Below are positions 21,344 through 24,631 of a stretch of 64,000 nucleotides of DNA, in pieces. Location of the stretch: positions 363,902-427,901 of the forward strand of contig NZ_AMSI01000002.1 in the NCBI RefSeq assembly GCF_000300515.1. The letters run 5' to 3'. The translations under genes and the position numbers were made by a program. The DNA is from Nitratireductor indicus C115 (GTDB lineage Bacteria > Pseudomonadota > Alphaproteobacteria > Rhizobiales > Rhizobiaceae). Within the stretch, counting starts at the first letter, position 1. Each line of letters begins with the position of its first letter. Under the pieces are notes generated by a model, which did not search any database, was not told where the DNA came from, and saw only the letters and a program-made list of their open reading frames with translations.

Positions 21344-21381
21344 GGAGCGCTCATCCACAATGAAGCCAGAATGAGCGCTCC
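21344..21381 (-). terminator. Terminator at the end of the pilin-like locus
   Basis: An 11-bp perfect stem (GGAGCGCTCAT at 21344-21354 with ATGAGCGCTCC at 21371-21381) lies 7 bases after the stop of the last gene of the locus. On the minus strand it is followed by the T-rich TTCTTCCTGTTTCTT, which supports minus-strand termination. Confidence 0.75.
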
Positions 21382-21388
21382 GGCCTCG

Positions 21389-21859
21389 TCATTGGCCCTT
21401 GTGGGTCCATTCAGGACCATCGGCCCACCCGCCCGAGGAGGACGAGCCCCCGCCACCACGCGGATCAAGCCCGCGTTCGAGCATCTTCACCTCCAGCTCG
21501 AGACGACGCAGTTCGAGTTGATAGAGGCGATCGCAGTTGAGACGCGTCGGCGATCTCCCCAGAGGAACGACAATGCGCCCATAGGCCGAGACAGAACGCG
21601 TATCTTCGTTGAGCCCCCCACCGATAACGCCGGAATCGAGATAGGCTCCCGATCCCCCCATGGCCGCGCGGCAAGTGGTACCGTCCGCCGCGCGGACCTC
21701 ATCAAAACCTCCCGGCATGCTGACACCCGGAAGCGTAAAGCTCTTCTGGTCGTAACGACCGATCCCCTGCCCGCGACTGCCCGCAAAACTGTGTTGCGGC
21801 AGGAATGCGGAAGCAGACGCAAGGGTTAGGATAATCGACGAGCGATAAAACGACCGCAT
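21389..21859 (-). CDS. Secreted protein X2 of the pilin-like module (unknown family)
   Basis: I do not recognise this family. The 156-residue protein has a signal peptide (SIILTLASASAFLPQHSFA) and is a paralogue of the protein at 23335-23802. The shared core runs GFDEVRAADGTTCR, GAYLDSG.IGGGL, SVSAYGR.VVPLG and RLNCDRLYQLEL.RLELEV, with cysteines at identical positions (C63, C109). The last part (about 109-131) is a Leu-rich amphipathic helix that could form a coiled coil, followed by a Gly/Ser-rich tail. Its start overlaps the end of the chaperone-like gene by 34 bases, exactly as in the other module. Secretion and context suggest a structural or assembly role. Confidence 0.7.
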   Translation of the reverse strand: MRSFYRSSIILTLASASAFLPQHSFAGSRGQGIGRYDQKSFTLPGVSMPGGFDEVRAADGTTCRAAMGGSGAYLDSGVIGGGLNEDTRSVSAYGRIVVPLGRSPTRLNCDRLYQLELRRLELEVKMLERGLDPRGGGGSSSSGGWADGPEWTHKGQ

Positions 21860-22212
21860 ACCTTCGCCCTTACATTCATCTCTTTGTCTTCGAAAGGAAC
21901 GCTCTCTGTGCAGATACGAACCCGCCGTTCACGCTTTCCCTCAAAACTGATCACCACCACCACAGACCTGGCGCTACCCGCTCCAAGCCAGAAATCTGAC
22001 GGCGTGATGCGCGCAGGAATGGGGTTGAAATCCTGATCGTAGACACGCACCGTCGCCTTGATGCGGTGCGTATATGGATTGCGCGGATAGACCCGGACAG
22101 CAAATTCGTCGGAGTAGCTGGTGACTTCCCCACGCATAGGGCTCATGGATTGAGCATGCGCACATGGTGCCAGGCACACCAGCAGGCCGGAAACAAGGAA
22201 CGCAGGCTTCAT
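21826..22212 (-). CDS. Periplasmic chaperone-like protein B2 (single Ig-like domain)
   Basis: The 128-residue protein has a signal peptide (LVSGLLVCLAPCAHA) and a short beta-rich domain with FAVRVYPRNPYTHRIKATVRVYD-type strands, then ARSVVVVISF and RRVRICTESVPF. The pattern is reminiscent of the N-terminal immunoglobulin-like domain of PapD-type pilus chaperones, but there is no second domain. That reading is an inference from strand pattern and position beside pilin-like genes. It has exactly the length and cysteine positions (C101, C119) of its paralogue at 23769-24155. ATG 22212 is chosen for an excellent AAGGAGG 6 bases upstream. An upstream in-frame ATG exists at 22251. Confidence 0.65.
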   Translation of the reverse strand: MKPAFLVSGLLVCLAPCAHAQSMSPMRGEVTSYSDEFAVRVYPRNPYTHRIKATVRVYDQDFNPIPARITPSDFWLGAGSARSVVVVISFEGKRERRVRICTESVPFEDKEMNVRAKVCGRFIARRLS

Positions 22213-22262
22213 GACAAGCCTCCTTCGCGATAAGAAGCGATACATATTCATGGCTTTGAAAA

Positions 22263-22730
22263 TTACTCGCAGACGATAATCGTCTCGGCTCGGTAAGCAC
22301 CGTGCGGAAAGGCGCCATCTTGCAAGACAGCCTTGAGGTCGACCGTCACATTGCTTTCGCCAGGCTTCAATCGGGATTTTGCTGTTCCAGGAATGCCGCG
22401 AAGATTGGTCGAGCCAGAAGCGTTGTACTCGGTTGCGAACTCGGCGCGTCCAACCCCGGACGGCGCCTTGTCAAATGCTTTAGGAGCCTTGACCAGCAGA
22501 TAAAATTCACCCGCATTGGTCGAGACCGTCGCGCGTCCCGGGCTGCCGCCGCTCAACTTGGAATCGAGGCGTTTTCCCGAAACATCCGCAACCATGACAC
22601 CCGGGGAATTGATAACAATAGAGCAATAATATCCAATACTTGCCTCAAACGGTAGAATATTAGACGATGAATTTGCTGAAAAACACGCCGAAAAGAATAT
22701 TAAAAAACAATAAAAAATCTTAAAATTCAT
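22263..22730 (-). CDS. Secreted pilin-like subunit A3
   Basis: The 155-residue protein begins with an AT-rich-coded signal peptide (FKIFYCFLIFFSACFSA) and a mature beta-rich domain in which C36 (YYCSIVI) and the penultimate C154 (IVCE) probably form a disulphide. The pattern of early Cys-x-Ile, a central FA..YNASGSTN and a terminal VxCE is shared with A2 and A1 and recalls spore-coat-U/Csu-type pilins. Family placement is tentative. Codon and base use is much more AT-rich at the 5' end than in neighbouring genes. ATG 22730 has AGGTTG upstream. It lies 25 bases after the stop of A2 and 50 bases before B2. Confidence 0.65.
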   Translation of the reverse strand: MNFKIFYCFLIFFSACFSANSSSNILPFEASIGYYCSIVINSPGVMVADVSGKRLDSKLSGGSPGRATVSTNAGEFYLLVKAPKAFDKAPSGVGRAEFATEYNASGSTNLRGIPGTAKSRLKPGESNVTVDLKAVLQDGAFPHGAYRAETIIVCE

Positions 22731-22755
22731 AATACAACCTGATAAAATTACTTTT

Positions 22756-23244
22756 TTATTCACAGATAACCGTTACATCGGCTGAGTAATGGCCGTTCGG
22801 AAACACGAACCCAGAAGCCTCTGCATTGAGATCGATCGAGATATTGCTAACACCAAGTCCCAACTTCAGGGCATCATTGCCAGCCACCCCACTGGCATGC
22901 GTTGCCCCCGAAGAACTGTATGAAGCGTTAAACATCACAGATCCAACCCCTGCCGGAGACACTCGAAAACGCTCAGGTGCATTCAAAAAGACACGAAAAT
23001 CCGTGCCTGTCGTGAAAATATCCACTTCGGCAGACCGCCCACCATTGGCACCGGAGCTCAAAAGAGAAAATCCATTCAAAACCATAAGACCGGGACTGCG
23101 CATATTTATAGTGCATGAGGACTCCACATCAGAATCGAAGGGAACCAACACTTCAGAGAAAGCAAAACTAGGAAAAATAAAAATAACAAATAAAATAAAT
23201 CTAGAAAAAAACATACAAAACCTCATGTATATAAAAAAATCCAT
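22756..23244 (-). CDS. Secreted pilin-like subunit A2
   Basis: The 162-residue product has a long, very hydrophobic signal peptide rich in Phe (MFFSRFILFVIFIFPSFAFS) and a mature domain with C44 (SSCTINM) and C161 (VICE), 117 residues apart as in A1 and A3. It shares with A1 and A3 the features F.ASYSSSGAT, a GVGS-type turn and the GHYSADVTVICE ending. The start may be ATG 23244, GTG 23250 or ATG 23226; AGGA at the right distance favours one of the first two. The gene is strikingly AT-rich at its 5' end, unlike the genome around it. It has only about 30 bases between a terminator and its start. Confidence 0.65.
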   Translation of the reverse strand: MDFFIYMRFCMFFSRFILFVIFIFPSFAFSEVLVPFDSDVESSCTINMRSPGLMVLNGFSLLSSGANGGRSAEVDIFTTGTDFRVFLNAPERFRVSPAGVGSVMFNASYSSSGATHASGVAGNDALKLGLGVSNISIDLNAEASGFVFPNGHYSADVTVICE

Positions 23245-23272
23245 GTACACATGAATCCTGCAAAATACAAAT

Positions 23273-23305
23273 GAAAAAAGCCGCCAATGTAAAATTGACA
23301 GCTTT
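23273..23305 (-). terminator. Minus-strand terminator between the two modules
   Basis: On the minus strand AAAGCTGTCAA (23305-23295) pairs with TTGGCGGCTTT (23287-23277) through 11 pairs including two G-T wobbles, with a 7-base loop and a run of T. It lies 30 bases after module 1 (stop at 23335) and just upstream of A2. It may fully end module 1 transcription or attenuate it. Confidence 0.75.
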
Positions 23306-23334
23306 ATAATAATGTAATTACGTAAAAATACTTC

Positions 23335-23802
23335 TTATCGCCGGCTCGTAGTCTTCCAGCTCGCGTCATTAGCCCATGCACCGCCGCGGTTGTTCGTTGC
23401 GCGCGGATCAAGCCCTTGCTTCAAAAGCCGGACCTCCAGTTCGAGGCGTTCCAACTCAAGCTGATACAATCGGTCACAATTGAGCCTGGCGGGCTTTTCA
23501 CCAAGGGGGACAACAAGGCGCCCATAGGCAGAAACCGAGCTTGAGCCGCTATCCAATCCCCCTCCGATCAATCCGGAATCAAGATAGGCTCCCGATCCTG
23601 CCATGGAGGAACGACACGTCGTACCATCCGCTGCCCGCACTTCATCGAAACCGTTGGGCATCACCACGCCGGGTAAGGTCATCCCGGATTGGTTCTGATT
23701 GATGATGTATTGAGTTTCTCCGGCGAATGTCGCCGAAACCGCAAACACCGTTATGAATAAGGCCGCGCTTAACGTGCACGGCGCGCGATAAATCGTCCGC
23801 AT
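23335..23802 (-). CDS. Secreted protein X1 of the pilin-like module (unknown family)
   Basis: The 155-residue paralogue of the protein at 21389-21859 has a signal peptide (TLSAALFITVFAVSATFA), the shared GFDEVRAADGTTCRSSM core, GAYLDSGLIGGGL, SVSAYGRLVVPLG, and a C-terminal helix RLYQLELERLELEVRLLKQ that could be a coiled coil. C63 and C109 are at the same positions as in X2. I cannot name a characterised homologue. The start ATG 23802 overlaps the chaperone-like gene by 34 bases. No good ribosome binding site lies close to the ATG, which suggests translational coupling. Confidence 0.7.
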   Translation of the reverse strand: MRTIYRAPCTLSAALFITVFAVSATFAGETQYIINQNQSGMTLPGVVMPNGFDEVRAADGTTCRSSMAGSGAYLDSGLIGGGLDSGSSSVSAYGRLVVPLGEKPARLNCDRLYQLELERLELEVRLLKQGLDPRATNNRGGAWANDASWKTTSRR

Positions 23803-24155
23803 ATCTGTGCCATTATCCTCGTTTTCTGATCCGGGAATGGGATGCTCTCCGTACACACGCGAACGCGCCGCATCTTGCTGTCGCCAAAACCGACGGAGAC
23901 GATCACCGATCGTGAAGCATTGCTCCCGAGCACCATGGTCTGCGGCGTCACTCGTGCCGCAACCGGTTTGAAATTCTCGTCATAGACCCTCACCGACACC
24001 TCGATCCGATGCCGGTAAGGATTGTGCGGATAGACCCTGACGGCGAAATCCTCCGAAAAGCTTGTGATTTCTCCACGCATCGGAGTCATCGATTGGGCAA
24101 AGGCCGGAGATGCGAAGACCGCGCAAAGGATCGCTGGAATGAGTTTCGCCGTCAT
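23769..24155 (-). CDS. Periplasmic chaperone-like protein B1 (single Ig-like domain)
   Basis: The 128-residue protein has a signal peptide (KLIPAILCAVFASPAFA) and the same short beta-rich domain as B2: QSMTPMRGEITSFSEDFAVR, then YRHRIEVSVRVYDENFKP, SRSVIVSVGF and RRVRVCTESIPFP, with C101 and C119 conserved. By eye roughly half of the positions agree with B2. The likely role is holding or capping pilin-like subunits in the periplasm, inferred from its position between a pilin-like gene and X1. The ATG has AGGTGATCCC upstream and follows the A1 stop by 8 bases. Confidence 0.65.
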   Translation of the reverse strand: MTAKLIPAILCAVFASPAFAQSMTPMRGEITSFSEDFAVRVYPHNPYRHRIEVSVRVYDENFKPVAARVTPQTMVLGSNASRSVIVSVGFGDSKMRRVRVCTESIPFPDQKTRIMAQICGRFIARRAR

Positions 24156-24163
24156 GGGATCAC

Positions 24164-24631
24164 CTATTCGCAGGTCACAATCACGTCGGCCGCATAGGTG
24201 CCGGACTGAAAGACGCCGCTCGACTTGGTTGCAGTCAAGTCGACACTGAGATCGGTCAACCCCGACACCAGCGGCGTCATGGTGGTACCAGGCACATTGA
24301 GCGCCGTCGTCGCGCCGCTAGCGCTATAGATCGAGGCAAACGTCACGTGGCTGTTTCCAGTGGGAGGCGCAGAAGAGAAGGAAGCCGGGGCCGACGTGGA
24401 AACGGAATAGCCAACACCGGAGGCCAGGATTGAAACCTGCCCCGCCATTCCACCAGATTGGGTCGAGCTCAGGATGGTGTAATCGGGACTGATGGCCAGC
24501 GTTCCCGCCCTATCGACGGTGATCGCACAGGTCGACATCACTTCTCCGCGAAAGGGGACGATGCCGCTTGCCGAATATGCAAAGGAAGGAACCAACGCCA
24601 GGATGGCGCCGATCATAAGGGGCTTACGCAT
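24164..24631 (-). CDS. Secreted pilin-like subunit A1
   Basis: The 155-residue protein has a signal peptide (PLMIGAILALVPSFAYS) and a Ser/Thr/Gly-rich beta domain with C35 (STCAITV) and C154 (VTCE), a probable disulphide pair. The motifs FASIYSASGATT, VPGTT and GTYAADVIVTCE link it to A2 and A3. It resembles spore-coat-U/Csu-type fimbrial subunits in length, signal and terminal strand, but lacks any feature that proves assembly into a fibre. It is the first gene of module 1, with an AGGAG-containing ribosome binding site 8 bases before ATG 24631 and base composition like the genome, unlike A2 and A3. Confidence 0.68.
   Translation of the reverse strand: MRKPLMIGAILALVPSFAYSASGIVPFRGEVMSTCAITVDRAGTLAISPDYTILSSTQSGGMAGQVSILASGVGYSVSTSAPASFSSAPPTGNSHVTFASIYSASGATTALNVPGTTMTPLVSGLTDLSVDLTATKSSGVFQSGTYAADVIVTCE

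Follow-up and report, generated by a model that had tools for sequence, protein, structure and literature searches.

Linked A, B and X genes of Nitratireductor indicus C115: a possible usher-independent relative of chaperone/pilin systems, also carried by plasmids and phages

Chaperone/usher assembly is taught as requiring a two-domain chaperone and an usher. Can a surface structure be assembled with less? This question is raised by a stretch of 64,000 nucleotides from Nitratireductor indicus C115 (contig NZ_AMSI01000002.1, positions 363,902 to 427,901; hereafter the window), in which seven small genes on the minus strand, from position 24631 to 21389, stand in the order A1-B1-X1-A2-A3-B2-X2. 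An earlier note on this DNA interpreted them as a duplicated module of pilin-like (A), chaperone-like (B) and X proteins, which might form a reduced surface-fibre or coat system. The analysis described below supports this view in part. We assign a probability of roughly 0.42 to the proposal that A-B-X is related to the chaperone/pilin systems but independent of an usher, assembling a short fibre or coat. The features of the locus are the following:

24164..24631, minus strand: A1, secreted, pilin-like subunit, module 1 (155 aa; VPF extension at the N-terminus, C35/C154, CE end; fold from the L048 orthologue)
23769..24155, minus strand: B1, putative single-domain PapD-type chaperone of module 1 (128 aa; R27, C101/C119, R121; fold from the L048 orthologue)
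23335..23802, minus strand: X1, secreted protein, module 1 (155 aa; C63/C109, helix at the C-terminus; phrog_37374 match)
23277..23305, minus strand: terminator-like hairpin 3' of module 1 (z -6.0)
22756..23244, minus strand: A2, second A-family subunit (162 aa)
22263..22730, minus strand: A3, third A-family subunit (155 aa)
21826..22212, minus strand: B2, putative single-domain PapD-type chaperone of module 2 (128 aa; C101/C119)
21389..21859, minus strand: X2 of module 2 (156 aa; C63/C109)
21344..21381, minus strand: terminator-like hairpin 3' of module 2 (z -4.0)

All seven open reading frames reported in the earlier note were found again with the same coordinates and lengths. The residues that it had singled out were also confirmed: the spacing of the A cysteines (C35-C154 in A1) and the CE end of all three A, the common length of 128 residues and C101/C119 of both B, and C63/C109 of both X. 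In each module the B and X genes overlap in different frames. Judging by eye from signal-peptide-like N-termini, A, B and X would all be exported to the periplasm. None of the seven proteins had a Pfam or NCBIfam match above the family cut-off. Since a terminator-like hairpin follows X in each module, the likely units are A1-B1-X1 and A2-A3-B2-X2; a simple terminator pattern scan of the whole region gave 7 sites against 5.2 expected, which is not clearly above chance. The starts of A2 and A3 (22600-23300) are very AT-rich, with GC as low as 0.31-0.33 compared with 0.5-0.6 in the surroundings.

Do these genes belong together? B1 as a query matched 16 of 61 genomes (its own included), with 2 or 3 copies in each of 11 genomes of the same genus. 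Scanning of the genome collection with a B profile yielded 118 encoding stretches, of which the best 80 were kept, representing 78 distinct loci (near-identical and odd-length proteins were excluded from the alignment lists). As the loci were selected by B alone, the presence of A and X is independent of the selection, and the A, B and X profiles matched neighbouring same-strand reading frames in 78/78 loci. The survey of gene order that had been suggested earlier has thus demonstrated A-B-X linkage throughout this set, the genera of which include Nitratireductor, Chelativorans, Aminobacter, Mesorhizobium, Aureimonas, Consotaella and Fulvimarina. The printed orders were A-B-X-A (61 loci), ABX (7), ABXAB (4), ABXABX (3), a three-module arrangement (1) and shuffled (2); the shuffling results from over-long reading-frame starts, and trimming of the starts gave A-B-X-A in 63 of the 78. 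The A2 gene, regarded in the earlier note as an extra one, is indeed present, but an additional A is the rule rather than an oddity.

The duplication of the module is not private to the C115 genome. In the B tree the module-2 copies cluster together, with support 95/77, and a single change accounts for them. Three modules are present in N. soli (L050), and one at the locus of N. luteus (L057). Five genomes of the genus (L036, L037, L038, L040 and L042) show no X in module 2, with its A and B kept. A lone, distant B-like secreted protein (L046, 9361-9828, minus strand; 30% identity to B1) has no A or X match beside it. Farther out the module is rare: with the own genome counted, X was matched in 2/385 class genomes and 6/297 order genomes, and B in 1/385 class genomes. 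The profiles matched all three proteins, in the order A-B-X, in the outgroup loci L131, L137, L138 and L168, the X of L131 coming from a source genome with 10% contamination. The most frequent families flanking the bacterial loci resemble, by eye, ordinary chromosome.

What kind of protein is A? Most loci encode two or more A, and the family has a characteristic end: 143 of 150 proteins terminate in CE and 149 of 150 have a cysteine within the last four residues. In the A-B-X-A loci, the first A has a strand-like [V]xF stretch, which lies 4-7 residues ahead of its first cysteine, in 63/63 cases; the stretch is absent from the last A (A') in 60/63. Prediction of the fold (18 of 24 in-frame A-B pairs used) gave an all-beta A for L048, with the N-terminal residues lying outside the fold; on this model, the C35-C154 pair would pin the first strand to the last. 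Pilus tip subunits are not known to have an N-terminal extension. Exchange of pilus subunits via such an extension, and capping by a minor subunit, are described in PMC5700814. The proposed profile comparison of A with spore-coat-U proteins turned out negative: at E 1 the 29 A tested hit 13 families, none of them SCPU (PF05229), and hhalign gave it a probability of 0.76%. The third protein, X, combines an invariant pair of cysteines with a small beta-sheet and a helix at its C-terminus.

The folds of A and B were predicted for the orthologues in L048, a locus on the same contig as L031; the A orthologue there is 64% identical to A1. B is a one-domain protein of 128 residues, and its predicted fold (L048 orthologue) matches PapD-like chaperone domain 1 over the whole domain; MSP domains match it almost as well as chaperones. 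The comparison of B with PapD domains had a divided outcome, with a match of the predicted fold and none of the PapD_N profile. Basic residues occupy the R27 and R/K121 positions in 87/87 and 86/87 B of L048-L125, and in 20/28 and 24/28 diverse B. These are probably the carboxylate-anchor positions of domain 1, as mapped from the ends of the alignment range only and with a pLDDT of 65 at the first position; this first arginine is absent from 5/6 phage B. Profile searches of the PDB gave chance-level matches only, the lowest E values being 0.03 with A (a nanobody), 0.27 with B and 0.12 with X. In the enlarged family sets (23 B, 20 X, 29 A; the seven of the window included) there was no Pfam match better than E 0.012. 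With hhalign, B against the two-domain chaperones of the genus and its relatives reached a probability of 14% over 44 columns, and the other eight pairs 0.7-7.3%, which we counted as no evidence.

Is an usher available? Matches to the usher family (PF00577) were found in 7 of 22 module-bearing genomes, the same 7 that have PapD_N (PF00345), and 15 of the 22 have neither. Among the 19 genomes at least 90% complete and with at most 5% contamination, 13 are without an usher match. The usher of C115 itself belongs to a separate operon on contig 13 (L047, 8846-13407), together with SCPU-like proteins and a two-domain chaperone. None of the 30 most frequent neighbour families of the 78 loci, judged by eye and without an usher-model scan, looked usher-like. 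An usher gene just outside the window, which the earlier note had named as a refutation, did not turn up in this inspection. The linkage of the genes, the predicted fold of B, the difference between A and A' and the lack of an usher match in most of the module-bearing genomes tested are what the analysis has shown. They agree with a chaperone that holds strand-exchanging subunits in a system lacking an usher.

On this basis we propose how the set might work. The edge strand of B and its two basic residues (R27, R/K121) would hold the last strand and the C-terminal carboxylate of A. The A subunits would then polymerise, the N-terminal extension of the next A displacing B, with the extension-less A' sitting at the tip, and the product would be a short fibre or coat. 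X may act as an envelope partner to which B passes A, and which anchors or exports the product. A bolder version, which we regard as speculative and unlikely, makes A-B-X a distinct and minimal system of export and assembly. Here X would replace the usher by forming the passage through the outer membrane or recruiting one, and the module would move among bacteria, plasmids and phages as a surface-exclusion device, with cells that are infected or bear a plasmid coating themselves in A and shutting out competitors.

The distribution of the module extends beyond chromosomes of Alphaproteobacteria. A wider X profile matched 10/398 genomes of the phylum (own included), four of them outside Alphaproteobacteria; one of these four, G726 (E 3e-4), was discounted, as its stretch has no A, B or X match. 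The loci L164, L165 and L166 carry B-X-A, with an additional A in L166, a Vibrio-like locus whose X is 93% identical to one of Vibrio sp. THAF190c. Three Vibrio plasmids have B-X-A (L169), A-x-B-X (L170) and A-B-X (L172), and one of the plasmids opened is typed conjugative. Size, position and cysteines, without a profile, were the basis for assigning the B of L164, L169 and L172, the A of L169 and L170, and the first A of the pair in L166. Other genes were noted in these loci: a 264-residue secreted protein with no Pfam or PHROG match between A and B of the conjugative plasmid (L170, 6769-7563), and large lipoprotein-like proteins near the module in L172 (11268-15950; annotated SslE/AcfD, matching Peptidase_M60) and in the Vibrio-type genome of L164 (10381-15732; Ig-like domains).

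Phages carry the module as well. The window X matches phrog_37374 at 2e-8, and four Vibrio-type X match this family too; phage A and phage B match phrogs 25895 and 25455. In a collection of 50,697 phage records (E 1e-3), phage A was found in 179, phage B in 179 and phage X in 190; the A and B matches come exclusively from Vibrio phages, which also account for 180 of the X matches, the other X records belonging to Klebsiella (6), Erwinia (3) and Stenotrophomonas (1) phages. X of a Vibrio plasmid matched 87 records and X of a Vibrio-type genome 45. Ten phage records were opened, eight with A-B-X (L173, L176-L182) and two with B-X-A (L174, L175). Profiles support all three proteins of the eight except B in L178, B scores being weak (E 6e-7 to 2e-4); the A of L174 and L175 and the B of L175 and L178 were assigned by size, position and cysteines. 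Among these phages are members of the Demerecviridae (T5-like), Straboviridae (T4-like) and Vequintavirinae, which are considered lytic. Directly upstream of A-B-X lies a large gene matching the C-terminal part of phrog_10818, a family without known function, in 5/5 phages tested (L173, L176, L177, L179, L182), and in the T5-like phages Ceto and pVp-1 a holin and an M15 endolysin follow a little downstream. The X frame of Ceto (L173, 4935-5312) is absent from the annotation, in which gp147 is placed in another frame. A scan of viral contigs added 25 loci, 24 with A-B-X and one in which the contig breaks off after A-B. Two more signal-like genes precede A-B-X in L185, L188, L189 and L204 (about 500-2050), with no clear Pfam family where tested; a GH19-type endolysin guessed by eye beside the module of L189 was rejected, having no Pfam match.

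That phages and plasmids carry the module hints at an envelope action that helps the mobile element, perhaps exclusion. On this view A, B and X would form a complex which alters or masks the surface and blocks further phages or plasmids, and which need not polymerise; phages and plasmids would carry it for this purpose, and bacteria would have kept copies. We consider this rather unlikely, although it fits the occurrence in several groups of tailed phages and on Vibrio plasmids, the position 3' of the phrog_10818 gene in the five phages tested, and that ahead of the lysis genes in Ceto and pVp-1. According to PMC9586334, the gene of the T5 exclusion lipoprotein Llp adjoins, downstream, the receptor-binding gene, and by analogy the module would be another small envelope determinant beside a tail gene of a T5-like phage. 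This is an analogy only, and inspection by eye revealed no lipobox in any of the three proteins. Against exclusion, phrog_10818 has no known function, the PADLOC defence models matched 0/6 proteins, the bacterial flanks look chromosomal, and genes beside lysis genes may be expressed too late. The assembly and exclusion readings are compatible rather than exclusive.

Other explanations dispense with strand exchange, with the chaperone or with the absence of an usher. B might merely stabilise A, a secreted or surface monomer or coat protein tethered by X. This accords with the one-domain B, the 15 of 22 genomes without an usher match and the C35-C154 pair, which would hold the first and last strand of A together; we think it improbable, as an N-terminal extension kept in 63/63 first A and missing in 60/63 last A would be purposeless in a monomer. 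Less likely still is the idea that B serves as a PapD-like structural part, with no chaperone role, in one stoichiometric envelope complex with A and X: the near-equal match to MSP domains and the absence of the first anchor arginine from 5/6 phage B agree with it, but nearly all B of L048-L125 retain both anchor positions, and B is kept with A in the five genomes missing the second X. The SCPU-type operon on contig 13 could suggest that a canonical usher encoded elsewhere serves the module, an explanation largely refuted by the 15 genomes in which neither an usher nor PapD_N was matched.

How does A-B-X, taken as an assembly system, compare with known ones? With the classical chaperone/usher systems (PapD/FimC/Caf1M) it shares the domain-1 fold of B, probably both anchor positions, a subunit gene beside a chaperone gene, and subunits with and without an N-terminal extension. 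Unlike them, it has no second chaperone domain, no usher gene and an extra gene X; its A is not detectable as a pilin by sequence, the cysteine pair would join the ends of A, and it is phage-borne. Small secreted beta proteins and a GTY-type C-terminal strand of A (by eye) recall archaic chaperone/usher pili and SCPU/Csu, for which C115 has its own separate operon, but A does not match SCPU. B is also without domain 2, through which, according to PMC4654587, archaic chaperones partly anchor the subunit. CsgC and CsgH of the curli system are likewise small single-domain periplasmic proteins, but none of 23 B matched CsgH (PF21112) at E 1, and a single A did so at only E 0.2 (curli genes were not searched for). 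CsgH occurs in Alphaproteobacteria.

In the openly licensed literature of PubMed Central we recognised no description of an A-B-X module. PHROGs 25895 (A), 25455 (B) and 37374 (X) are all listed as of unknown function and without a link to one another; the linkage of A, B and X gives partners to these three families, as well as to genes that are hypothetical or unannotated in the phage and plasmid records opened. The carriage by phages raises the question of what a phage gains from secreting a pilin-like protein and its chaperone. With half a chaperone, and no usher in most of the genomes tested, the module asks what minimum is needed for assembly, and it is small enough to be rebuilt in a test strain. 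Bacteria of soil and sea, as well as plasmids and phages, keep this compact three-protein set without an usher, which suggests an undescribed route by which something is built at the bacterial surface.
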